DNA from: a virus
IMG/VR virus record: IMGVR_UViG_3300015189_000107
Location: 1 to 24,764 of that record
Length of the DNA: 24,764 nucleotides
Direction: 5' to 3' (one strand)
Of this stretch, positions 1-22,654 are shown in pieces. How positions within the stretch are numbered: position 1 is the first letter of the stretch; each line of letters starts with the position of its first letter. The position numbers and the translations under genes are program-made. The notes under the pieces are model-generated. The model searched no databases and was not told where the DNA came from. It saw nothing but the letters and a program-made list of their open reading frames with translations.

Positions 1-49
1 CGGACTCTATTGAGCGGGGTGTCTCAAAATAAGGGGGGATTTTGAGACG
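1..49 (-). promoter_or_regulatory. Palindromic late-promoter-like element, copy 1
   Basis: This 49-bp segment matches 13503-13551 at 47 of 49 positions and in the same orientation. It contains perfect 10-bp inverted arms (GTCTCAAAAT at 21-30, ATTTTGAGAC at 39-48) around an 8-bp G-rich centre (31-38). Reading the minus strand, the palindrome is followed after 11 bp by TAGAGT (complement of 4-9), which matches the -10 consensus at four of six positions, including the first T-A and the last T. It lies about 110 bp beyond the stop of the last tail gene, so it would drive an unseen minus-strand operon to the left, possibly lysis genes. I infer that it is a binding site for the Mor/C-like activator at 13562-13870. 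The match may extend left of the window. The 110 bp between it and the tail gene hold no convincing gene. Confidence 0.6.
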
Positions 50-159: not shown

Positions 160-801
160 CTAAGCCGCTGGCGGTGGTACCGCCTCGCCCCACCCGAGCG
201 CGTCGACGGCCGCAGCGTTCCCGGCCGCGTCGATTGCCACCCGCAGCGCAGCGGCATGGGATCGAGCGCCTTGCTCCCGAGTATGGCTGGCGCGCCACAA
301 CTCGTTCATCTGCAATGCGGTCAGCGCGACCGGCGTGTTGTCTGCCAGGCTGTAGATGACGCCGGACCCGTTTGCCGCGCAGAACTGTGCCTTTGCGGCG
401 ATCGCCATGCGCGCCTTCTCGTCGTGGTCGAACATACCGTGCGCTGTGGTAAGCGGTGCGTCGATCGCCCTGTCGCGCGCAGCCTTGACCTCAGCCCACT
501 TGTCTGCTTTCGCCTTCTTGAGCCGAGGGCGCAAGTACCACCGCTTGGTGGTCGAGTCCCAGGCCCACACGTACAACGCCAGGTCGGTGCCGTCCCACGG
601 GGGCTCGGGCTTGTGGTCAATCAACGCGCCGGTATCGAGGTGCACACGCATGCTGAGGTAATCAACCTCACCGTCGTGCGCGCCGACACCATCACCCTTG
701 TGAGCTAACTGAGCGGCAAGCTGCTGCGCGGTGCCGATGAACGAGGCGCCGCTGAACAAGCCGCTCGCCAGGTCGTAGAAATGCCATGTCGACTGTGTCA
801 T
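160..801 (-). CDS. DUF4376-type phage tail protein
   Basis: A 213-residue protein. Its C-terminal half (about residues 95-190) has the pattern of the DUF4376 domain found in phage tail and tail-fibre-assembly-like proteins: a lysine/arginine-rich helix followed by 'APLTTAHGMFDHDEKAR', a short helix, and a 'LADNTPVALTALQM' segment. The N-terminal part looks like the short beta-rich front half seen in such proteins. The ATG at 801 overlaps the TGA of the preceding gene as ATGA, which fixes the start; a longer open frame upstream is antisense-like, arginine/histidine-rich and was dropped. It is the last gene of the tail operon visible here. Role inferred: accessory tail-tip or fibre component. 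The domain call is from memory of the family pattern, not a search. Confidence 0.75.
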   Translation of the reverse strand: MTQSTWHFYDLASGLFSGASFIGTAQQLAAQLAHKGDGVGAHDGEVDYLSMRVHLDTGALIDHKPEPPWDGTDLALYVWAWDSTTKRWYLRPRLKKAKADKWAEVKAARDRAIDAPLTTAHGMFDHDEKARMAIAAKAQFCAANGSGVIYSLADNTPVALTALQMNELWRASHTREQGARSHAAALRVAIDAAGNAAAVDALGWGEAVPPPAA

Positions 802-6018: not shown

Positions 6019-6597
6019 CTACCAGGTCTCGATCAGCTCGACCTCGACGCCCTGCGCGACGACGGCGCTGTGCCGCACCGGTACGCGAGGATCGGCCAGG
6101 CGCCAGGTGCTGCTCGGGCGATACCAGGTGACGGCGGCTCCGGAGGCCAGCGCGATGCGCGCACGGTTGACGAGCGGCACGGCAATCGTGCCGGCACCGC
6201 TGCAGTCTTCGGCAACCTGAAAGAGCAGCCCACCGACGCCGAGCATGTCGCCTGCGGCGAGTGTGCCGCTGCCTGAGACGGAGAGCGCCGCGGCGCCCTG
6301 CGCAGCAGCGGCCGCGAGCGTGGGCGCACCGCGCAGCGTGCCCACTGGCTCAGGCCGTGCGAGGTGCCAGGCGCGGATGCGATTGACGCCGCGCTGCTTG
6401 TTGAAGAAGGCCTCGAGCGCCCCGCTTTCGCGCCGGTATCGGGGCGGCAGGCTGACGGTCATGCGGAAGCGCTCGCCGAGCAGGTCGATGCTCTGGTAGG
6501 CGCGCGTGAATGGGCTTTCGAATTCGCGGGTATTCGGGTCGAGCAGGATGCTGCACTCGCTGCACAGGAAGGCATCGGGCCAGTCGTAGACCGTCAT
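6019..6597 (-). CDS. Phage distal tail / minor tail protein (lambda M-like position)
   Basis: A 192-residue protein directly after the tape measure gene, the position of lambda gpM or the distal tail protein. It opens with an aromatic segment ('MTVYDWPDAFLCSEC') and contains 'RAYQSIDLLGERFRMTVSLPPR', typical of siphophage proteins that bind the end of the tail tube. A glycine/alanine-rich beta insert (about 100-150) precedes a C-terminus beginning 'WRLADPRVPVRHSAV'. The ATG overlaps the tape-measure stop as ATGA. Function is inferred from position and general pattern; no enzymatic motif is seen. Confidence 0.75.
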   Translation of the reverse strand: MTVYDWPDAFLCSECSILLDPNTREFESPFTRAYQSIDLLGERFRMTVSLPPRYRRESGALEAFFNKQRGVNRIRAWHLARPEPVGTLRGAPTLAAAAAQGAAALSVSGSGTLAAGDMLGVGGLLFQVAEDCSGAGTIAVPLVNRARIALASGAAVTWYRPSSTWRLADPRVPVRHSAVVAQGVEVELIETW

Positions 6598-8843
6598 TCG
6601 AACGCCCCCGCCCGGCGCTTGCTGCGCAGGATCTCGCTCTTGAGCTGGCGGTTGCTGGCTTGCAGAGCCGAGGCCACCTCGGCGCGGCTCACACCTTGCC
6701 CGACGTAAATGCTCTGTCCGCTGAAGTCGAAGACGTCTCCGCCCGCTTGGAGCGCGCTGTTCGGCACGATCGTGCCGTTGACCTGTGGCACGAACAGCTC
6801 GCGGCCGCGCTCGCCGGTCATCACCGGCACGCCGGCACTGACGCTGCCGCCCGAAGCCTTGAAGCCGCCGAACAGGCCCAGGAGGCTGCCGATCGCGCCG
6901 CCACTGCTGCCGGTGGACCCGCCGCCGAAGATGTCGTTGAGCAGCGGCTTGACGATCTTGAGACGAACGAACTCCGCGATGATGGTGTCGACGATCTGGC
7001 GCGCGTCGATCGCCTTGCCGGTAAGCGCACCGGTGAGGCCGTCTTCGAGCGACTTGAGGCTCTCGGTGACGAACTTCTCGGCGTCGAGGCCGGCCTTGCC
7101 GAGCCCATCGGTGTAGGCCTTGAGCGCGCGCTGCGCGCCGGCCAGCGGGTCGTCTTCGGCCTTCGCTGCCTTGGCCGCGAGCTCGGTACGCAGGTCGATC
7201 TGCTTCTGCAGCAGCGCCGCCTTGTCGCGCAGCGCGAGCAGCTCACCCGCGCCGGCGCCGAGGGCTTCTGCTTCTGCGATGGCGCCCTTCTCGACTGCCA
7301 GCGCCAGCTCGAGGCGCTTGATGCGCAGGTTCTCGACCTCGCGTGCGTTCAAGCCGAAGATCTCGATCTGATCGAACAGGCCCCGGTTCTCCTGCAGGCG
7401 TGCTTCGGTCTGCTGCGCGATGAGTTCGAGCGTGTCCTGCTCGACTTTGAAGTCGGCGTCGGCAGCTGCGCGCAGCAACGCCCGTGTCTCCAACTGGCGA
7501 TCGAGCGCCTTCACGTCGGCGAGGCGCGCGCGAACCACGTCCTTCTGCGCGGCGCTGAGCTTCGACTTCGCGCCGCCGAGCGCGGTCTCGACGTCGATGG
7601 CGAACTTCTCGGACTCGGTGAGCTGTCGGTTGAGCGCGATCTGGACCTTGTCGGCCTCGGCGCGCTCCTTCAGCTTGTCGAGCAGCGCGCTGAACTGGTT
7701 GAGACCCGCGTCCTTGTCGGCGCCGCCGGTCTTGTCAGAAACGGGTGCGGCTTGCTTTGACGCGTTCGCGCGGTTCAGCAGGCGCTGCATCTCGCCGGCG
7801 TTTGAGCGAGGGTCGACGACATCGATCTCTGCCTTGAAGACTTCGTTCGCCTTGCTCGCTTCGAGACGCAGCTCCTTCAGCTTGGTGCGCAGGGAGGTGG
7901 CACGACGCTGCGCGGCTTCATTGCCCGGCTCACGAGCGAGCGTGTTGTCGAGGCCGACGAGGATGTTCTCGACGCGCTGCACCTCGGCGCCGCTCGACGC
8001 GACCTTGCGCTCGAGCTCGCCGAGTTTGTCGAGGCCGAGATCAAAGGCAAGCGCCTGCTTGAGCGTGAGAAGCGCCGCGAGAAACAGGTTGCTGTTCTTC
8101 GCGTTCTCGATGAACTGCGCGGCCAACTGGTTGAGGCCCGGAAGCAATTTTTCGAGCAACGCGACCTTGCCGCCCTCGGCCGCCAGCGAGAGGCGCTTCA
8201 GGTTGTCGTGGAAGTCCGCAGCGCCTTTGGCGACCTCGTTGCTGTACACGGCGCCAAGTTCGCGCGCCAGCTTTGTCTGCGCCTCGATGCCGGCGCTGCC
8301 CTGGTTGAGCAGCGGGATGAGTGTCTCGCCGGCCTTGCCGAACAGTTGGGTGGCGAGCGCGCTCTTGGCTGCGCCGTCCTGGTAGCTCTTGAAGCGGTCG
8401 GCGATCTCGAGCAGGACTTCGCTGCTGCTGCGCAGCCCACCCTGCGCGGTCTTGACGCTGACGCCGATCGCCTCGAATGCCGCGCTCGTCTGCTTGCCGC
8501 CGCCCGCGGCGTCTGCCATGTTGACGGCGAGCTTGCGCAAGCCGCCGGCCAGATCCTCGAGTGAGGTGCCGGCGGTTTCGCCGGCGAATCGAAGCGCGCT
8601 CAGCTGCTCGGCGGCGATGCCGGATTTTTCGGCCAGGTCATCGAGGCGGTCGAGCGTATCGATGGCGCCGGCCAGCGTGACGCCTTCGAACGCAGCGGTG
8701 ATGGCCAGGCCGAGCGTGCCGAACGAGGCGCCGGCCTTGCCCGCGGTGTCGCGGACCTGCTGCAGGCCGGCACGCGCACGAGCGAACGCGGCAGCGGTGT
8801 CGTCTTTCGCGCTGAGGACGATGCGGGCAACGTTATCGGCCAC
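6594..8843 (-). CDS. Tail tape measure protein (lambda H family)
   Basis: A 749-residue protein that sets tail length and occupies the tail lumen. The N-terminus ('IVLSAKDDTAAAFARARAGLQQV') and following hydrophobic stretch are typical of the lambda tape-measure family. Long lysine/glutamate/alanine-rich helices fill about 200-560. The C-terminus carries the usual glycine-rich stretch ('FGGFKASGGS'), then 'GERGRELFVPQVNGTIVPN', a standard end of this family. The start is GTG at 8843, four bases after the stop of the T frame, preceded by a G-run that can act as a ribosome site. In lambda this protein is bound by the gpG/gpGT chaperones, which here lie immediately upstream. Confidence 0.95.
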   Translation of the reverse strand: MADNVARIVLSAKDDTAAAFARARAGLQQVRDTAGKAGASFGTLGLAITAAFEGVTLAGAIDTLDRLDDLAEKSGIAAEQLSALRFAGETAGTSLEDLAGGLRKLAVNMADAAGGGKQTSAAFEAIGVSVKTAQGGLRSSSEVLLEIADRFKSYQDGAAKSALATQLFGKAGETLIPLLNQGSAGIEAQTKLARELGAVYSNEVAKGAADFHDNLKRLSLAAEGGKVALLEKLLPGLNQLAAQFIENAKNSNLFLAALLTLKQALAFDLGLDKLGELERKVASSGAEVQRVENILVGLDNTLAREPGNEAAQRRATSLRTKLKELRLEASKANEVFKAEIDVVDPRSNAGEMQRLLNRANASKQAAPVSDKTGGADKDAGLNQFSALLDKLKERAEADKVQIALNRQLTESEKFAIDVETALGGAKSKLSAAQKDVVRARLADVKALDRQLETRALLRAAADADFKVEQDTLELIAQQTEARLQENRGLFDQIEIFGLNAREVENLRIKRLELALAVEKGAIAEAEALGAGAGELLALRDKAALLQKQIDLRTELAAKAAKAEDDPLAGAQRALKAYTDGLGKAGLDAEKFVTESLKSLEDGLTGALTGKAIDARQIVDTIIAEFVRLKIVKPLLNDIFGGGSTGSSGGAIGSLLGLFGGFKASGGSVSAGVPVMTGERGRELFVPQVNGTIVPNSALQAGGDVFDFSGQSIYVGQGVSRAEVASALQASNRQLKSEILRSKRRAGAFE

Positions 8844-10204: not shown

Positions 10205-10669
10205 TCAGGAAACGATGTTGTCGGGGTCGTTGCGCACGGTGCGGAACTCTGCGAGCAAAGTGACGGTGACGACGCCGAGCGCGGCCTCGCCTTCGCCGGC
10301 CAGGTCGCGATCGATGCCGGTCAGCGTGAGCTGCAGTCGGTCTTCAAGCGCGCTGAGGGCATCGGACTCGGCCGGCGGGTTGAACAGGCGCGTGCAGACC
10401 TCGCTGGCGAGTGCGTCGAGCGCGTCGTCGAGCAGGTCCACGGCCTTGGCCACACCCTGAAAGTCGACGCGCAGGGCGTGCGCCTGGAGCACGGGGTCGT
10501 GCAGGGTGAGCACGCTGATCTCTTCTGCCTGCGTAACGACTTTCCACGCTGGCAGGTCTGCCTCGGTCAGCGGCCAGGCGCGGCTCTTGAAGACGCGCTC
10601 GGCCGTGCTCGGCAACCCGATGATTCGGGCGGCGAGCGCGTACTTGACCTGGGCAGACGCGAGGGTCAC
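10205..10669 (-). CDS. Tail terminator-like protein (lambda U position)
   Basis: A 154-residue protein between the small head-joining candidate and the tube gene. The fold pattern (a helix 'ASAQVKYALAARIIGL', short strands, then a helix 'ALASEVCTRLFNPPAESDALSALED' and C-terminal strands 'GEAALGVVTVTLLAEFRTV') fits the compact alpha/beta tail terminator group that caps the tube at the head end. I chose the GTG at 10669 ('VTLASAQ'): the longer frame upstream is arginine/proline-rich and overlaps the preceding gene. The family assignment rests on position and size more than on a clear motif. Confidence 0.72.
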   Translation of the reverse strand: MTLASAQVKYALAARIIGLPSTAERVFKSRAWPLTEADLPAWKVVTQAEEISVLTLHDPVLQAHALRVDFQGVAKAVDLLDDALDALASEVCTRLFNPPAESDALSALEDRLQLTLTGIDRDLAGEGEAALGVVTVTLLAEFRTVRNDPDNIVS

Positions 10670-10867: not shown

Positions 10868-11812
10868 TCAGGCCACCGCGTTGGTGATGAGGTAGCCGGC
10901 GAGCGGCGACACCATCACCGGTGCTTCGCAACGGGTGACGGGGAAGATCCACGACTTGCTGTTGCCCTCCCAGTACGGCTCGTCGGCGATGGGGTACTCG
11001 TTGAGCGAGTACGTGTAGCCGTAGGTGGGCGTGCCCATGTCGCGCAGGCTTGCCACTTCGGTGAAGGCGATGACGACATCCTTGCCCCACACGTCGCCGA
11101 ACACACCAGCGTCGGTCGCGAAGATCGACTCGCCGATGTACACGTTGGCGATGCCGAAGAGCGAGCTCAGCAGATCGGTGGTGGCGATGTCGCGGCCGGT
11201 GTACTTGAGCCGGTCGATGATCTTCGGGTGCTGCTTGAGCTTGGACCAGACGGCCGCGCCGATGACGATGACGTTCGGGCGCTTGCCGGTGGAGGCGCGG
11301 ATCGCTTCCTTGGCGGCCTCGATCACCGAAATCGGGTCGCTGACGCCGGTGGTGAAGTCACTCCACTGCCCGGTGCCCGACAACGTTGTCTTGTTGCTGG
11401 CTGCGTAGCTGGCGGCGGCGCGCGCCAGCTGCGCCGACGCGTACTCGAGGCGCAGGGCCATGATGTTCTGCACCTTGCGCACGGTCATGGCGCCGAGATC
11501 GAGCGAGACGCCGTTGGCGGCCTCCTGGTAGATCTCGATCGGCACCTTGCCTTCGAGCCCGAAGTCGATCAGCGCGTAGGGTGCGCCGGCATAGCCGAAC
11601 TGCACACGCTTCGTGTTCTCGCCAGGCGCGCGCTGCGAGTTGTAGAGCATGAAGTCTTCTTTGCCGAAGGTGATGATGTTGCCGCCGCGCAGCGGCACAT
11701 CGACGTTCGGGAAAAGGTACTGGGCGACGAGCTCGCTGTTGGCGTAGCCCTGGGCGATGGTGGTCAGGACCGGGTCGACGATCCGCGCACCTTTGGGTGT
11801 CAGTTGTGGCAT
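10868..11812 (-). CDS. Major capsid protein
   Basis: A 314-residue protein in the lambda E slot, preceded by a decoration protein and protease. It has the usual features of a HK97-fold shell subunit: an N-terminal arm ('YANSELVAQYLFPNVDVP'), an E-loop-like segment ('ALIDFGLEGKVPIEIYQEA'), a long spine helix ('MTVRKVQNIMALRLEYAS'), and a peripheral domain with 'KRPNVIVIGAAVWSKLKQHP', a common motif in phage capsid proteins where the protein folds into an A-domain helix. It ends at TGA 10868. GGAG seven bases before the ATG at 11812 supports the start. No delta domain for proteolysis is obvious. Confidence 0.88.
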   Translation of the reverse strand: MPQLTPKGARIVDPVLTTIAQGYANSELVAQYLFPNVDVPLRGGNIITFGKEDFMLYNSQRAPGENTKRVQFGYAGAPYALIDFGLEGKVPIEIYQEAANGVSLDLGAMTVRKVQNIMALRLEYASAQLARAAASYAASNKTTLSGTGQWSDFTTGVSDPISVIEAAKEAIRASTGKRPNVIVIGAAVWSKLKQHPKIIDRLKYTGRDIATTDLLSSLFGIANVYIGESIFATDAGVFGDVWGKDVVIAFTEVASLRDMGTPTYGYTYSLNEYPIADEPYWEGNSKSWIFPVTRCEAPVMVSPLAGYLITNAVA

Positions 11813-12185: not shown

Positions 12186-12608
12186 TCAGGCTCCTTGTTG
12201 AACGGCTTTGACGGCGGCGACGTAGTCGATGCCGGGGTGCGCGGCCTGATAGGCCTTCGCATGCGTGTTGAGCTCCGCGCGGGTGAGCTCTTTCTTGAGC
12301 GGCGCCTCGACGCTCGGGGCGCCGGCGGCCGGGACTGGCTTGGGCGACTCGTTCTCGGCAGCGGTTGCGTGCGCAGCGCGCAGGCCACGCTCGGCCGCGT
12401 TGACTGCCATCGCGGCATCGGCCGGGGTGCTCGTGCCGTCGAACTTCATCGCGGCGATGAGCTTCTCGTGGCCAGGCAGTGCCTGGCCTTCGATGCCCTG
12501 GATGCGGGCACGCTCTGCGGTGGCGCCGGCGGCGTGGCCTTCGGCGAGGATGGCGGCGAGCACGTCGGGGGCGTCGGCCGCGAGTTGGACTCGGGTGATC
12601 GTGGGCAT
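12186..12608 (-). CDS. Internally started scaffold protein (Nu3-like)
   Basis: Inside the protease gene, an in-frame ATG at 12608 (residue 292 of the protease) is preceded by AGGAG with five bases spacing, a better ribosome site than the one for the full-length protein. The product would be 140 residues, starting 'MPTITRVQLAADAPDV', helical and alanine-rich, with a charged C-terminus ('KKELTRAELNTHAKAYQ'). In lambda, Nu3 scaffold is made exactly this way from inside gene C. What I see is the start and its ribosome site; separate expression is inference. Confidence 0.75.
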   Translation of the reverse strand: MPTITRVQLAADAPDVLAAILAEGHAAGATAERARIQGIEGQALPGHEKLIAAMKFDGTSTPADAAMAVNAAERGLRAAHATAAENESPKPVPAAGAPSVEAPLKKELTRAELNTHAKAYQAAHPGIDYVAAVKAVQQGA

Positions 12609-13481
12609 TGCTGCTCCTGGTTGGGTTGAGGCTGGCGCGGCACCGGCGCGGTCTGCGTTGAGCTGGGCGATGAGCTGGTCGAGGGTGGCAACACCGTCCA
12701 CGAGACCTGCATCGATCGCTTGTTGCCCGATGAACATGCGCCCATCGGCCATGTCCCTGAGAACGACCTTGTCGCTGACACCGCGCGCGCTGGCGATGGC
12801 ACCGACGAAGAGGGAGTAGTAGTAGTCGACCTGGTCCTGAATCGTCTGCAGGCCATCGGCCGACAGCGGCGCGTACTGACTGGCGACACGCTTGAACTTG
12901 CCGGCGGCGATCTCGGTGGTCTTGATGCCGCGCTGCGATTCGGCGCCGGACACGTCGGTGTGCGAGGCGACGACGCCGATCGAACCGACCGCGGTGGTGC
13001 TGTCAGCGATGTACACGGCCTGCGCGTGCGAGCCGACCCAGTACGCGGCCGAGGCCATGGTGCCGTTCGCAAGCGTGACGATGGGCTTGATGCCCTTGCC
13101 GCTGGCGACAACATCGGCCAGCGCCTGCGTGCCATCGACGGTGCCGCCAGGGCTGTCGATCGCGAGGATGATGGAGTGCACCGCCGGGTCGGCGAGTGCG
13201 GTGCGCACGTCTCGCGCGACCAGCTCGCTCGATACGCCGCCGCTGATCTGCATGAACAGGTTGGCGCGCTTGGCGATCACGCCTTCGATCGGCAGGACGG
13301 CAACGCCGTCGATCACCTGGTAGGCCTGCTGCTCGTTGGCGAGGGGGCGGCCGAGGCGCTGTTCGACGCCGGCGATGTCGATCTTTTCGCCGCGCAGGTG
13401 TGTGGCGTAGATGCCGTGAATCTCGACGAGCTTCTGCGGCTCAATGGCCCAGGGAGAGGTGACTACGTCGAGGAGTTTCAT
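12186..13481 (-). CDS. S49-family head maturation protease with C-terminal scaffold (lambda C/Nu3-like)
   Basis: A 431-residue protein. Residues 60-285 form a SppA/S49 serine protease: 'IILAIDSPGGTVDG' (oxyanion region), 'TMASAAYW' with likely nucleophile Ser144, 'VGSIGVVASH', and 'AGKFKR' with the likely general base Lys197, 53 residues later as in the SppA dyad. Residues 292-431 are alanine/glutamate-rich and helical, fitting a scaffold. The lambda equivalent cleaves scaffold and portal in the prohead. The ATG at 13481 lacks a strong ribosome site. The gene is the first one after the repeat/promoter element at 13503-13551; portal and gpW genes that normally precede it are absent. Confidence 0.9.
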   Translation of the reverse strand: MKLLDVVTSPWAIEPQKLVEIHGIYATHLRGEKIDIAGVEQRLGRPLANEQQAYQVIDGVAVLPIEGVIAKRANLFMQISGGVSSELVARDVRTALADPAVHSIILAIDSPGGTVDGTQALADVVASGKGIKPIVTLANGTMASAAYWVGSHAQAVYIADSTTAVGSIGVVASHTDVSGAESQRGIKTTEIAAGKFKRVASQYAPLSADGLQTIQDQVDYYYSLFVGAIASARGVSDKVVLRDMADGRMFIGQQAIDAGLVDGVATLDQLIAQLNADRAGAAPASTQPGAAMPTITRVQLAADAPDVLAAILAEGHAAGATAERARIQGIEGQALPGHEKLIAAMKFDGTSTPADAAMAVNAAERGLRAAHATAAENESPKPVPAAGAPSVEAPLKKELTRAELNTHAKAYQAAHPGIDYVAAVKAVQQGA

Positions 13482-13502
13482 CGCGGCATCGGTTGGATGC
13501 AG

Positions 13503-13551
13503 CGGACTCTATTGACGGGGGTGTCTCAAAATAAGGGGGGATTTTGAGACG
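13503..13551 (-). promoter_or_regulatory. Palindromic late-promoter-like element, copy 2
   Basis: This 49-bp segment matches 1-49 at 47 of 49 positions. It has 10-bp inverted arms at 13523-13532 and 13541-13550 with an 8-bp G-run centre, and on the minus strand TAGAGT (complement of 13506-13511) 11 bp past the palindrome. If TAGAGT is the -10, transcription would begin near 13499, about 18 bases before the protease ATG, and the palindrome would be centred near -38 with no recognisable -35, as expected for an activator-dependent promoter. It lies between the activator gene (stop at 13562) and the first head gene. The arms have no U-tract, so it is not an ordinary terminator. Confidence 0.65.
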
Positions 13552-13561
13552 ACTTCAAATT

Positions 13562-13870
13562 TCAATCGTCTCCGGTGGCTGGGCCACGCTTCATGAGGCG
13601 GTAGAGGGTGCTCCTGCTGACTCCCGTGCTCTTGACGATGTCGGTGACCTGGCCCGGTCCGAGCATCGCCTTGAATGCCGAGCGCTGCGCAGAGATCGGC
13701 AATGATGGACGACCCGATCTGCCTTGGGTGGTCTTGGGCATGATCACCTGTTCCCCACCGAGCGCCGCGAGGATCTGCTGGAGCACCTCTTCGCTTGCCT
13801 CTTCCGTGATTTCGGGGCGCTTGACGCGCGCAGCGGCGAGCGCCGCACGAAGACGCGCCAGCACGTTCAC
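13562..13870 (-). CDS. Mor/C-family-like late transcription activator
   Basis: A 102-residue DNA-binding protein. Residues 27-46 ('EEVLQQILAALGGEQVIMPK') resemble the dimer-forming helix plus 'LGGxQVYIPR' turn of phage Mu Mor and C, and residues 72-95 form a helix-turn-helix ending 'STGVSRSTLYRLMKR'. Length fits the family (about 95-140). The start is GTG at 13870, overlapping the terminase stop as GTGA, so it is coupled to terminase translation. Mor and C bind dyad sites and recruit RNA polymerase to promoters lacking a -35 box; the two palindromic elements in this window are the obvious candidate targets. The helix-turn-helix alone also resembles serine recombinase tails, but no catalytic domain is present. 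Confidence 0.75.
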   Translation of the reverse strand: MNVLARLRAALAAARVKRPEITEEASEEVLQQILAALGGEQVIMPKTTQGRSGRPSLPISAQRSAFKAMLGPGQVTDIVKSTGVSRSTLYRLMKRGPATGDD

Positions 13871-16140
13871 TTGAGCGAACGTCCGAATCGGCTGGAGCCG
13901 GCGAGCGAGATGCGGCCGCCAGCGCCAAGCGTGTTCACCGGTGCTGGACGCGCCGGCACTGCTGCGGTGGGCTCCTCGACCAGTTCGAGCTCGGGCATCA
14001 CCGTCGGTGCGACGCCGTCTTCGTCATCGACTTCCTCGGTCGAGGCCTCGGGGGCTGGTTCGTGTGCGTGCGTGTGCACGGGTGCCGGCGGCACATCGAT
14101 CGATTCGTCGGCGGCCTGCTCGTCCGCGTGCTCATCACCGCCGAGCAGCGAAGCCTGGCGCAGCCGCGACTCGATGGCCTGCCATTGCGAGGGCTTGTAG
14201 ACGTTCAGGCGCAGCTGTCGGCAGAGCCACACGAAGTAGACGGTGCAGTCGAGCACCTCGTTGCGCCGATCTGTGCGCTCGGTCCACTCTCGAATGCGCT
14301 TGTTGAAGATGCCCGGGATCTTCATCTCGCCGAGTAGCTGCTCGAAGAAGTCGTCGCGCACGCCCTTGTACCAGTGCATGCGGCCCGGCCCGCGGCCGGT
14401 GAGGCGCACACGGCCGCCTTCTTTCGTGGCCCCGAGAACGAGGTCTTTCGCCTTCGCGGTGCCGACGGTGCTGACCTTGACGCCGGCGCGGTCGGCCTTC
14501 GTGCTCTTGCGGTTCGGATCGATCGCGCGGGGAACGGTCCAGATCTCGACGCGGCCGATGCGGTCGCTGGCCCCCTTGACGGCGTAGACCGGTCGGCGGC
14601 GGTTGTCGTGCTTGCGGATGAAGGCGTAGACGGCGTCACTGGTCTGGCCGTCGCCGCAGTCGATCGCGACGGCGGCGATCGAGATCTCGGCGCCGCTGGC
14701 GTGGCGCACGGTGTGCTGCATCAGCTCCTCGAGCTGGCCCCATGCGCCTTGGTGCGCGAGGATCGTTCGCCCCGAGAGTTCGCCCCAGAACGTGAGCCAG
14801 CACTCTTCGCCGCGGCCGACGACCCAGACGGTGACGGCCAGGCGGTCGTGCTGCACGTCGACGGTCATCAGAGCGACGAGGCCTTCGGCAGGGCACGACC
14901 ACTCGGCGTAGGGCTCGGCGCGATCGCGGAGTTCGTCTTCTTCGGGCAGCTCGCCGCGGTACTCCCACGCCAGGCCGAGGCATGAGTTCCAGAAGGTGAT
15001 CATCTTCTCGGGATCGCCGTTGTCGAACTCGTTCTGCGCGGTGAGGAAGCGCATCGCGAGCACGGGCAGGCGCGAGCCTTCGAAGATGCTGAGCAGCTCG
15101 CTCAGGTAGAAGCCCGGCGTCGAGCTTTGCGCGGTGGCCAGCCAGCCGTAGGCCGGCGCGACGAGCGAGGCGCGCTTTATGTTCTCGATGCGCTCGTCGT
15201 CTGACCAGATCGTGCCGCAGTGGGGGCACGTGTAGTAGGCATCCTCCCATCGAGCCCGGCCGTAGACCTCGCGACGTGGCCACTTCTCGTCGAGCTCGGC
15301 CGGCGGCAGCGCGAGCTCGTCGTCGGAAAGCTTGAGGCCGGGGATGGTGACGTTGTCCCATTCGAGCGCGTGCGTCTCACCGCAGGAATGGCACCCGGTC
15401 ATGAAGTAGCGCTGGTCGGTACTGCGCATCTCTTTCACGATCAGGCTCGTGGCCTTGGCGGTCGGCGTGCCGCCGATGAGCTGCAAGTCGTCAGGCGCGT
15501 ACGTCTTGGTGCGCTCGGCCAACAGCGCGATCGCGTTGCCCTGCCCCGCGACGTTCGTGTTCGTGTCGTCGGGCTCTTCGACGATGCCGATGCGGCCACT
15601 GGACGACTTCACATCGCTGGGGCTGTTGCTGGCGACGAACTTGAGCAGCCCGCCGCGAAACGAGCGCCGCGTGGTGCCGTTGCCGGCCGCGCGGCTGCGC
15701 AGGTTGACGCGTTCGGCGAGCGCCGGCGTCGCGCGTACCATCGGCTCGAACTTCTCGGCAGCGAAATCCTTGCTCGACTTCTCGCGCGGGAACATGACGA
15801 CCTGGACGCTCGGGCGCCAGTGGATGTGATAACCGATCACGTTGCAGACGATGCCGGCGGTGTAGCCGACCTGCGCGCTTTTCTGCACGCAGATCTTGCG
15901 CACGTCCGGGTTGCCGGTCTCGACGAGGATGCCGCGCAGCGCGGGCGTCTCGTCCATCGAATACTTGCCGGGCTTTGCGGTCTCCTCCTCGGCCATCTGC
16001 CGGTAAGTCTCGGCCCACTCCAGCGGCGTGAGGTGCGGCGGCGGCGCGAGCTCGGCCCACACGCGCGTGATCATCGCGTCCAGCGCGGCGGCGGCGCCGG
16101 CGTCGTCGATGAACAGGTGCGAGGGGGCGCGAGCGTTCAT
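13867..16140 (-). CDS. terL: Terminase large subunit (GpA family)
   Basis: A 757-residue DNA packaging motor and nuclease of the lambda gpA type. Residues 87-94 ('KSAQVGYT') match the lambda Walker A variant KSARVGYS. 'RIGIVEEPDDTN' lies in the Walker B region. Paired cysteines 'CHSCGE' and 'CPHCGT' form the zinc-binding insertion known in this family. 'LMTVDVQHDRLAVTVWVVG' carries the first acidic residue of the C-terminal nuclease. The length slightly exceeds lambda gpA (641) because of an acidic, proline-rich C-terminal tail (about 690-757). ATG overlaps the small subunit stop (ATGA), and the stop overlaps the activator start (GTGA). Confidence 0.96.
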   Translation of the reverse strand: MNARAPSHLFIDDAGAAAALDAMITRVWAELAPPPHLTPLEWAETYRQMAEEETAKPGKYSMDETPALRGILVETGNPDVRKICVQKSAQVGYTAGIVCNVIGYHIHWRPSVQVVMFPREKSSKDFAAEKFEPMVRATPALAERVNLRSRAAGNGTTRRSFRGGLLKFVASNSPSDVKSSSGRIGIVEEPDDTNTNVAGQGNAIALLAERTKTYAPDDLQLIGGTPTAKATSLIVKEMRSTDQRYFMTGCHSCGETHALEWDNVTIPGLKLSDDELALPPAELDEKWPRREVYGRARWEDAYYTCPHCGTIWSDDERIENIKRASLVAPAYGWLATAQSSTPGFYLSELLSIFEGSRLPVLAMRFLTAQNEFDNGDPEKMITFWNSCLGLAWEYRGELPEEDELRDRAEPYAEWSCPAEGLVALMTVDVQHDRLAVTVWVVGRGEECWLTFWGELSGRTILAHQGAWGQLEELMQHTVRHASGAEISIAAVAIDCGDGQTSDAVYAFIRKHDNRRRPVYAVKGASDRIGRVEIWTVPRAIDPNRKSTKADRAGVKVSTVGTAKAKDLVLGATKEGGRVRLTGRGPGRMHWYKGVRDDFFEQLLGEMKIPGIFNKRIREWTERTDRRNEVLDCTVYFVWLCRQLRLNVYKPSQWQAIESRLRQASLLGGDEHADEQAADESIDVPPAPVHTHAHEPAPEASTEEVDDEDGVAPTVMPELELVEEPTAAVPARPAPVNTLGAGGRISLAGSSRFGRSLK

Positions 16141-16613
16141 GCGGCGTCGGCGTCCGGATCGTCACCGGTGTTGCGCCAGTCGGCCAGGCGGCGGAGGAAG
16201 GCGTCGAACGCGTCGCGCAGCAGCTGCTCGCGCTTGCGCCGATCGCAGCCTTCCATCTGGCCGGCCAGCGCTGCGGCTGAGCGGAGCAGCAGCTCGCGTG
16301 CAGACACGACCGCCGAGCGGAGCCGCGGCTCGATCGAATCGGAGCGAACGAGCAGGCCCCTCTTCTCGGCCTGGGCGAGCTCAATGTCGTCGGCCTGCAG
16401 GCGGAACAGGCGATCACGCGGCGACTCGCCCTGCACCTTCCGCACCTCGCGGCTCACGAGCCAGTTGATGCAGGCCTCGGCCTCGTATTCGCTCGGCACG
16501 CCGGGACCGCCGCGAAGTGCGATCGGGAAGCCGTCTTCCTGCCACTCGACGATCGTCTTTGGCGCGACGCCGAACACATCGGCGACGCTTTCCTGACCCA
16601 CGATGCGCGTCAC
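16137..16613 (-). CDS. terS: Terminase small subunit (Nu1 family)
   Basis: A 158-residue protein that recognises the packaging site and recruits the large subunit. The N-terminus carries the Nu1 winged helix-turn-helix: 'GQESVADVFGVAPKTIVEWQEDGFPI', followed by 'YEAEACINWLVSRE'. A long charged helix region follows ('RDRLFRLQADDIELAQAEKRG'), as in the family's oligomerisation part. The start is GTG at 16613, with a GAGGT ribosome site about nine bases upstream. A cos site would be expected just upstream, near 16614-16746, but I could not identify one. Confidence 0.93.
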   Translation of the reverse strand: MTRIVGQESVADVFGVAPKTIVEWQEDGFPIALRGGPGVPSEYEAEACINWLVSREVRKVQGESPRDRLFRLQADDIELAQAEKRGLLVRSDSIEPRLRSAVVSARELLLRSAAALAGQMEGCDRRKREQLLRDAFDAFLRRLADWRNTGDDPDADAA

Positions 16614-20113: not shown

Positions 20114-20364
20114 CTGGGCAGGCCCTGCCGGTGCTCATGATCGCCGCGGCAATCCTCGTCGCAATACACCGCGAGCGGCAGGCAGCGCGCGCGGCAGTTC
20201 ATGCACACACCCGGTGTGCCACGCGGTGTCGCCGCCGCGCGCATGCTCTGAATCTTCAGTGCACGGTCGAGAAACTCGGCCTCGCGCTGGGTGGCCTGGT
20301 CGTCGGCGCTCAGACGCTCGCCTTGATCGCGCTCCTCGGCGCGACATGCTTTGCCAACCGCCAT
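20110..20364 (-). CDS. Small zinc-finger protein (TraR/DksA-like tail)
   Basis: An 84-residue protein with a helical, acidic/basic N-terminal half and a C-terminal cysteine cluster (Cys54, Cys57, Cys61, Cys68, Cys72; 'CMNCRARC' and 'YCDEDC'). Similar small phage proteins are often listed as TraR/DksA-type, although the spacing here is shorter than the classic C4 finger. If it acts like TraR it would bind RNA polymerase through the secondary channel. The ATG overlaps the CII-type gene's stop by one base (TGATG), and its own stop overlaps the primase start, so it is coupled in the early operon. Confidence 0.7.
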   Translation of the reverse strand: MAVGKACRAEERDQGERLSADDQATQREAEFLDRALKIQSMRAAATPRGTPGVCMNCRARCLPLAVYCDEDCRGDHEHRQGLPR

Positions 20365-20834
20365 CAGGCCCCCGCTGTCGAGGCTTGCGGGTTGCAGCGA
20401 CGATTCATCGATCGCGCCTGCGCCAGCACGGGCTGACCCGACGCGATCAGTTCGCCCCAGTGGCGCTCGATGCTGCGCAGCTCGTTGTCGGTCACGACCC
20501 CATCGGCCATGCCGGTCGCCACCGCACACATCACGTCCGCGAACTCCTGCGCCACTCGAGCGATGTGCGCAGCGGTGGCAGCATCGGGGGAGTCGAACGC
20601 CGGGAGCGGCACCACCATGCACTGCAGCTCGGCCGCCTGCGCATGCAGGATGCGCAGGTCGCCCGACATGCCCATGATCTTCATTGCGTCGAGCACGCCC
20701 AGTTTCGCGTGCGGCATGTTCTGCGCCACCTCGTGACAGAGGCTCGTGCCGCGCTTGCCCAGCCGGCCCGCCAACGCTTCGGCGCCCCCGGGGTAGTCGT
20801 GCACGGTGTTGTAGGCCGCGTCGAGCACGTTCAT
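20364..20834 (-). CDS. Phage regulatory protein, CII family (PF06892-like)
   Basis: A 156-residue protein. The start 'MNVLDAAYNTVHDYPGGAEALAGRLGKRGTSLCHEV' is the signature of the phage CII-type regulator family (Phage_CP76): a helix-turn-helix built on 'GGAEALAGRLG' and 'TSLCHEV', followed by 'AKLGVLDAMKIMGMSGD'. The C-terminal half is a helical oligomerisation region. Members act in the lysis-lysogeny decision of temperate phages. The start is ATG 20834; longer frames are shadow. The gene leads a coupled group: this gene, the zinc-finger gene and the primase-helicase. Confidence 0.85.
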   Translation of the reverse strand: MNVLDAAYNTVHDYPGGAEALAGRLGKRGTSLCHEVAQNMPHAKLGVLDAMKIMGMSGDLRILHAQAAELQCMVVPLPAFDSPDAATAAHIARVAQEFADVMCAVATGMADGVVTDNELRSIERHWGELIASGQPVLAQARSMNRRCNPQASTAGA

Positions 20835-20914
20835 TGCGAACCCCTGTGTGGCATGGCAGCACCGACGCCGTGTTGTGATAGACCCGCGCCGGCCGCGTGC
20901 CGATAGTTCGCACC

Positions 20915-21879: not shown

Positions 21880-22134
21880 TCACTCTGCCTCCTGGGTGGC
21901 GGTCTGCATTTCGCTCGACGGCCACTGCGCCAGCAGCTGGGCCTTCGTCACTTGCCCGTCCGTCAACGACTCGATGCGCTCCGAGTGCCCGGTCTCCCCG
22001 GTCCACTCCGTTCGCGGCATGCGGCCTCCCTTTTCCCACTTGCGTACCGCTTGGTGGGTTACCTCGAGGCCTCGCGCCAGCACGCTGAGGCCCACGATCG
22101 AAATCGCTCGAGAAAGTGGAGTTGACGTCGTCAT
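21880..22134 (-). CDS. Cro/YdaS-like helix-turn-helix regulator
   Basis: An 84-residue regulator. Residues 6-40 ('PLSRAISIVGLSVLARGLE' then 'VTHQAVRKWEKGGRMPR') match the YdaS/Cro-type helix-turn-helix found opposite repressor genes in temperate phages. It is divergent from the repressor at 22211 with a 76-bp shared regulatory region. A TGGACA/TAATAT promoter (complement of 22166-22171 and 22142-22147) would place transcription start at about the ATG, so the message may be leaderless; no ribosome site precedes the ATG. By arrangement it would antagonise the repressor and allow lytic genes to run leftward. Confidence 0.85.
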   Translation of the reverse strand: MTTSTPLSRAISIVGLSVLARGLEVTHQAVRKWEKGGRMPRTEWTGETGHSERIESLTDGQVTKAQLLAQWPSSEMQTATQEAE

Positions 22135-22210
22135 GCACCCGATATTACAACCCGAAGTTACTGTTTGTCCACAACCTCAAGTAACACGTAGGTTGGTTAC
22201 TTTCAGTTGT
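22135..22210. promoter_or_regulatory. Repressor/cro operator and divergent promoter region
   Basis: A 76-bp intergenic region between the two divergent regulators. The operator-like sites are AAGTTACT at 22155-22162, AAGTAAC at 22179-22185, and GTTACTT at 22196-22202; the last two form a perfect 7-bp inverted repeat with 10 bp between. CAACCT (22172-22177) and AGGTTG (22190-22195) form another inverted pair. The leftward promoter has TGGACA (complement of 22166-22171), an 18-bp spacer containing the first site, and TAATAT (complement of 22142-22147). No strong rightward promoter for the repressor is evident, consistent with an activated one. Confidence 0.7.
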
Positions 22211-22654
22211 ATGGACTCCAACCTCGACTCACCACGCACGGACTTCGCGCAGCGCTTGGTTGAAGTTTGCGAAGACATGAACCTGCCCGCACGCGGGCGT
22301 CAGACGCAACTCGCCAAGAAGTTCGGCGTTAGTCAACAGGCCGCCCGCAAGTGGCTTGATGGAATTGCCTACCCGGAAATCGACAAGCTCGTCGCGATGG
22401 CAGACTGGGCCAACATCAATGTCAACTGGTTGCTGCAGGGCGTTGGCCCGAAGCACGGCAACAGGGTTGACGCAAAAGCGCTTGTTCTCGATGAAGCAGT
22501 CAAGCTACTGCCGCGCGAGCTCGGCCTGGACCTCGTCGACAACCTGCGCGCCAAACTCGAACGAGTTGGCAAGCTACGCATAGGCGAGCCCTCGTCACGC
22601 TACTCCACCATGCTCGAGGCCTATGAACACGAGATCGCAAGGAAGCCAAATTAG
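22211..22654 (+). CDS. CI-like phage repressor without peptidase domain
   Basis: A 147-residue repressor candidate. Residues 30-53 form an XRE-type helix-turn-helix ('QTQLAKKFGVSQQAARKWLDG'), followed by 'YPEIDKLVAMADWANINVNWLLQGVGP', a typical XRE continuation. The rest (80-147) is a short helical region, presumably for dimerisation, with no S24/LexA-like serine-lysine peptidase. The ATG at 22211 was chosen by the position of the domain; no ribosome site is visible. Divergent from the cro-like gene, and followed by an overlapping lipoprotein gene. The lack of the peptidase means that RecA-driven self-cleavage is unlikely. Confidence 0.85.
   Translation: MDSNLDSPRTDFAQRLVEVCEDMNLPARGRQTQLAKKFGVSQQAARKWLDGIAYPEIDKLVAMADWANINVNWLLQGVGPKHGNRVDAKALVLDEAVKLLPRELGLDLVDNLRAKLERVGKLRIGEPSSRYSTMLEAYEHEIARKPN

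Follow-up and report, generated by a model that had tools for sequence, protein, structure and literature searches.

A small Mor-like transcription activator and two copies of a 49-bp element very probably form a late-gene switch in this viral DNA, and the same module of regulator and promoters, with different operator sequences, appears to drive the head modules across a clade of lambda-like phages. The window, that is, the complete stretch of DNA that was analyzed, is an entire IMG/VR contig of 24,764 bp classed as linear. In the proposed mechanism, the activator would be produced at the end of the terS-terL transcript and would bind the 28-bp dyad of both elements as a dimer. Once bound, it may replace the missing −35 and recruit host sigma-70 RNA polymerase to a weak −10, TAGAGT, 11 nt downstream. 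Transcription of the S49 protease/capsid/tail operon would thereby start from copy 2, and that of a connector/portal operon, expected immediately beyond the end of the contig, from copy 1. Binding as a dimer, activation, start sites and timing are what we infer; the gene position, the repeated dyads, the fixed hexamer spacing, the downstream genes and a partial co-variation of dyad arms and regulators are read directly from the sequences. The features concerned are as follows:

16137-16613, minus strand: terS
13867-16140, minus strand: terL, terminase large subunit (Pfam GpA_ATPase 8e-66 and GpA_nuclease 1e-75)
13562-13870, minus strand: gene of the Mor-like transcription activator, 102 aa (Pfam Mor E = 5e-5 and profile match to canonical Mor-family genes)
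13503-13551, minus strand: candidate late-promoter element, copy 2, ahead of the S49 protease/head operon (matches copy 1 at 47/49 positions; same two-block layout before S49 in the relative L003)
13523-13550, minus strand: 28-bp dyad of copy 2, GTCTCAAAAT-N8-ATTTTGAGAC, presumed activator site, centre at about −37.5 (from the sequence; same arms in the relatives L003 and L115)
13506-13511, minus strand: −10-like hexamer TAGAGT of copy 2, 21 nt past the dyad core CCTT (nAnnnT offset in relatives)
12186-13481, minus strand: S49 head maturation protease (Pfam Peptidase_S49 2e-32; PHROG head maturation protease 5e-86)
160-801, minus strand: last tail gene, immediately before copy 1 (PHROG tail protein 4e-14)
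1-49, minus strand: candidate late-promoter element, copy 1, behind the tail genes and presumably the connector/portal promoter (47/49 identical to copy 2; synteny with the relatives G004 and G005)
21-48, minus strand: 28-bp dyad of copy 1, with the same sequence as that of copy 2
4-9, minus strand: −10-like hexamer TAGAGT of copy 1

Along the minus strand the order is terS, terL, the 102-aa gene, copy 2, S49 protease, capsid, tail, a J-like tail-tip gene, the last tail gene and copy 1. The GTG start of the 102-aa gene overlaps the terL stop (GTGA), and the S49 protease is the first gene past copy 2. Proteins scanned from the window included lambda-like packaging, head and tail proteins, a DUF5906/VapE-like ATPase, and the products of CII-like and repressor genes; within this set, which is a subset of the ORFs of an incomplete contig, there were no matches to MuA or MuB. 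Early-switch genes of lambda-like type lie upstream of the late module, namely a CII-like gene (Phage_CP76, 20364-20858), a Cro/YdaS-like gene (21880-22134) and a CI-type repressor gene (22055-22654).

An earlier reading, made from the sequence only, had described a 49-bp element at 13503-13551 and 1-49 in the same orientation. Self-comparison of the contig confirmed this pair (47/49 identity) as its sole significant repeat, with E = 5e-17. Read on the minus strand, the element consists of GTCTCAAAAT-CCCCCCTT-ATTTTGAGAC, followed by 11 nt and TAGAGT. The absence of a −35 from this −10-like hexamer was likewise borne out: a mechanical scan of the element detected neither a sigma-70 −35/−10 pair nor an intrinsic terminator, and no TTGACA-like hexamer was present at a spacing of 15-19 nt. 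A dyad upstream of a −10 hexamer, with the −35 absent, is the arrangement of a Mu-type Mor/C promoter, and it was also seen in the 63 copies described below. Each copy had been placed between minus-strand gene blocks, which is correct for copy 2; copy 1 coincides with the end of the record, so that its downstream side is unreadable.

No portal gene was present among the ORFs from terL to the S49 protease, and tblastn with the portal of the nearest relative, L003, found none in the entire window. In G004 and G005, the gene order is terL, Mor, element, protease/capsid through tail, element, connector and portal. Because the window matches this order up to the contig end, copy 1 probably heads a connector/portal operon beyond that end. 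The original proposal that copy 1 drives the next operon fits the relatives of the same module order, in which the second copy stands before connector and portal. Alternatively, the contig could be misassembled or deleted, with the portal module between near-identical copies dropped and copy 2 as the junction. Such a loss would agree with the order in L003 (Mor, element, connector, portal, and later element and S49), with the missing portal, and with a contig that terminates exactly within an element. However, a post-tail copy like that at 1-49 is absent in L003 and present in G004 and G005, whose order needs no deletion. A skipped module would also leave this copy of the window unexplained. 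We consider misassembly rather unlikely, and if real it would leave the promoter reading unchanged. The portal-less stretch between TerL and the S49 protease, window 13482-13561, may reflect either a portal past position 1 or a contig misjoined at the element.

To place the window among its relatives, TerL was used as bait, gathering 43 and then 80 viral contigs. The clade was defined as phages whose TerL matched a reference at a level of at least 53%, and the remainder served as the outside group. With an HMM built from 15 regulators, a Mor-like gene was found directly after terL in 59 of 64 testable clade phages versus 0 of 50 outside; 14 of the 59 are seed sequences and a few are near-duplicates, and the contrast holds without them. 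The other five clade phages had no Mor-like gene detectable by the HMM. In the outside phages, connector and portal come straight after terL. An annotated phage collection held no TerL above about 43% identity to the clade, and two Mor-family matches inspected there were in other settings. The 49-bp element as a query recovered nothing from the phage collection, and the exact dyad nothing from the viral contigs, because the arms change too fast. A search for the element in related phages, as the sequence-only reading had suggested, was therefore empty as a direct query but succeeded in another form, as relatives carry dyads of the same layout with other arms.

When the genomes of relatives were each compared with themselves, many showed a dyad immediately behind the regulator that recurred at another place in the late region. 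Altogether, dyad elements were found in 34 phages, ahead of one or both of two modules, connector/portal and protease/capsid. Regardless of module order, the genes behind the copies encode either connector/head-tail joining proteins and portal, or protease/capsid. The dyads range from 26 to 28 bp in length, and their arms vary between phages. Some phages have a third copy before another short late-region ORF; in L082, L108 and L130 (third copies at 11241, 11630 and 19625, respectively) this ORF starts with MNPAADLALFYVDF or similar and is possibly a head-tail connector gene.

The distance between dyad and hexamer was then read from 63 copies in 34 phages, aligned on the core CCTA (CCTT in the window) and blind to the downstream sequence. 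The pattern nAnnnT occurred exactly 21 nt past the core in 61/63 copies (43/45 non-redundant) and at other offsets from +8 to +24 in only 0-4 of the 63. With one copy per phage, it was at +21 in 33 of 34, with six or fewer at random offsets. Hexamers at this position include TAGAGT, GACACT, GAGACT, CACGCT and CATGCT; the A at position 2 and the T at position 6 are the bases that matter most in a sigma-70 −10. The hexamer is fixed relative to the dyad and not to the start codon, which lies anywhere from just past the hexamer to about 60 nt beyond. Twenty phages outside the model served as a held-out test and gave 14 sense matches above 17 bits versus 1 antisense match, most of them with an ATG closely behind. 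With the hexamer placed at −12 to −7, the dyad would span about −51 to −24, with its centre near −37. A fixed spacing of this kind is what an activator-dependent −10 predicts. The motif CCTA(G/C)AAA, which many relatives have within the dyad, was considered as a −10 and rejected, as the column count puts the conserved A and T 21 nt downstream. A dyad in L004 was left out of the counts, both the Mor-like gene and the hexamer being absent there. In L093 (12418-12473 and 21185-21240), and also in L097, L099 and L104, the −10-like hexamer is enclosed by a GC-rich palindrome, TGCCACGCTGGCAGGCATGG, which extends as far as the start codon and is conserved across copies and phages.

The constant spacing also bears on whether the Mor-like protein is instead a repressor, with the dyads as operators that hold the head genes off until late. 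An HTH protein adjoining dyad operators is what such a system would look like, and dyads near a promoter would permit steric block. One fixed distance to the −10 would be unneeded for repression, yet it is 21 nt in 61/63 copies; there is also no −35 with which the promoter could work alone, and Mor and C are activators (PMC4390567, PMC4461284). We therefore regard a repressor as improbable.

We find it very improbable that the dyad functions at the RNA level, as an inter-operon hairpin serving as terminator, processing site or translational operator. The window copies do fold well (−11 and −14 kcal/mol, z about −5), and the arms are complementary in nearly all phages. However, no T-run follows the dyad, an RNA signal leaves the fixed −10 spacing unexplained, and the portal-side copy of L003 cannot fold (z +0.3), although its left half and hexamer are preserved exactly. 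This copy (L003 9072-9130) has lost the right dyad arm while retaining left half, core, spacing and TAGACT, and may represent a weaker or half-site promoter.

Under the preferred reading, in which the dyads are activator-dependent promoters, the position of the start codons has a further consequence. In 41/63 copies, about two thirds, an ATG begins 6-8 nt past the hexamer, and in the cases read it is the start of a connector, capsid or other gene. As this ATG coincides with the expected transcription start, leaderless mRNAs are predicted in these cases. The S49 copy of the window has its ATG 24 nt past the hexamer, and no Shine-Dalgarno sequence was seen before it; by this spacing, the window's S49 mRNA would not be among the predicted leaderless ones. 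We give about even chances to the broader proposal of a clade-wide late switch in uncultured lambda-like phages, in which Mor-like activators with their own operators would use a dyad covering the −35 region at a fixed −10 distance, and head mRNAs would start at or next to the AUG. If true, the activation geometry would be unlike that of Mu and would give leaderless structural-gene transcripts, which would be unusual for phage structural genes in Proteobacteria.

Directly upstream of copy 2, the earlier reading had noticed a 102-residue protein with an LGG-QVIMP turn and an HTH. This agrees with the ORF at 13562-13870 on the minus strand, which encodes LGGEQVIMPK and a C-terminal HTH. Its resemblance to Mu Mor and C was upheld through profiles, whereas the direct Pfam Mor score stayed under the cut-off. 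Pfam Mor (PF08765) matched residues 7-95 with E = 5e-5 and 23.6 bits, 1.3 bits below the gathering cut-off of 24.9. At the same locus, the Pfam Mor score is 19.6 bits in L115 and 49.4 bits in L127, and canonical members of the relative set match Pfam Mor with E-values of up to 1e-16. Single-sequence searches found no relatives of the window protein, and its plasmid matches were recombinase HTHs only. Its nearest homologue is the L003 gene at the same place (43% over 79 aa), and the window, L003 and L115 proteins have HGISRAGLYRLIKR in common. A profile of these three matched 12 canonical members of the Mor family, encoded at this locus in other phages, with a probability of 96.7% and E = 4e-10 (hhalign), the homology of the window protein covering the beta/Gly-Gly and HTH region. 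Searched against the PDB, those 12 members in turn hit the solved structures of Mu Mor and C at about 1e-8, and a profile of 45 regulators matched solved Mor with E = 3e-7 and C with 1e-3. The predicted fold was of middling quality (pLDDT 77, pTM 0.40). With 1rr7 and 9l0y as Mor fold references, it matched the 9l0y Mor chain weakly (Z 2.3, rmsd 13.4 Å, 90 aligned), and Foldseek returned no match. Taken by its profile matches, the window protein is Mor-like by descent, divergent, and at the edge of the family. In L121, 130 bp from the 3′ part of the Mor-like gene (6567-6696) are repeated with 98% identity about 3.7 kb downstream (10233-10362), with similar cases in L123 and L124; the repeat in L121 perhaps belongs to a second paralogous activator, comparable to the Mor/C pair of Mu.

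The HTH of the window protein also matched the resolvase-type HTH_7 (E = 1e-4), which would suit elements that serve as recombination sites for shuffling head modules. The copies flank modules whose order differs between phages, and the dyad resembles an invertase half-site pair. However, HTH_7 is the only part of a resolvase or invertase that matches, the 102 aa containing no recombinase catalytic domain; orientation is locked to transcription, the −10 spacing is fixed, and any repeat could serve for shuffling. Recombination sites are thus so improbable an explanation that we give it almost no weight.

The arms GTCTCA/TGAGAC and the helix SRxxLYRLxKR are common to the window, L003 and L115, and ..RTRxYEI.. 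helices occur with GTCCGG-type arms. A VRR helix pairs with the arm AATTTC in 5/5 cases and VRH with AATGTC in 5/5 (Fisher p = 0.008, an optimistic value as the pattern was chosen by eye). Over 33 phages, arm distance tracks HTH distance (Mantel r = 0.46, p = 0.0002) and also TerL distance; once TerL is controlled for, little correlation is left (partial r = 0.12, p = 0.02). This co-variation supports, short of proof, a direct recognition of the dyad by the regulator. The element of L135 at 302, with arms GTCTCATTT..AAATGAGAC near those of the window and a regulator that looks different, offers a test case for operator recognition.

No paper describing such an arrangement was found in the full-text literature, where most subscription papers fall outside coverage. 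The switch offers a testable answer to how a large lambda-like group, represented here almost only by metagenomic sequences, turns on its head genes without a known late regulator. It also provides dozens of natural activator-operator pairs, with recognition helices and half-sites differing stepwise, which would help to decipher DNA recognition by the Mor family and to design orthogonal promoters.

Several known systems share parts of this design. Lambda Q, P2 Ogr and staphylococcal Ltr are likewise phage proteins that switch on head genes, but the proteins and mechanisms are unrelated, and no regulators of these types were found near the window locus. Serine resolvases and invertases have a similar DNA-binding domain (HTH_7), and the window and L003 proteins carry GRxGRP before such an HTH; however, the catalytic domain is missing here, and in L115, whose arms and helix are the same, the usual short Mor linker takes the place of the GRP stretch. 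The closest likeness is to Mu. In Mu, the binding site of Mor is a 16-bp element with its centre at −43.5 that contains a pair of 5-bp inverted repeats and takes the place of the −35 (PMC4390567), and Mu C activates four late promoters, with DNA unwinding at Pmom and other steps elsewhere (PMC4461284). Like Mor, the proteins described here would be, by homology, small activators that have helices at the N-terminus, a Gly-Gly/beta segment, and an HTH at the C-terminus, and as in Pm the dyad lies upstream of a −10 with the −35 absent. In contrast to the 16-bp dyad of Pm at −43.5 (PMC4390567), those found here measure 26-28 bp with a centre near −37 by the hexamer. Mor serves one promoter, which makes C, whereas here 2-3 copies stand ahead of structural operons, and the Mor-like gene follows terL in apparently non-Mu-like genomes. 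The scheme resembles that of Mu C in having one activator for several dyad late promoters before structural blocks (lys, I, P and mom in Mu). However, C is expressed from a middle promoter of its own and controls the tail, lysis and mom genes, while the gene described here sits inside the packaging/head cluster, and the operator arms vary from phage to phage, unlike in the Mu C system. The initial proposal of a Mu-like late switch over a lambda-like head-tail cassette is well supported by the comparative evidence, but its geometry is not that of Mu. As far as the sequences indicate, the principle is shared with Mor and C of Mu, while the dyads differ in length and position, and the genes in location and in the type of genome that carries them.
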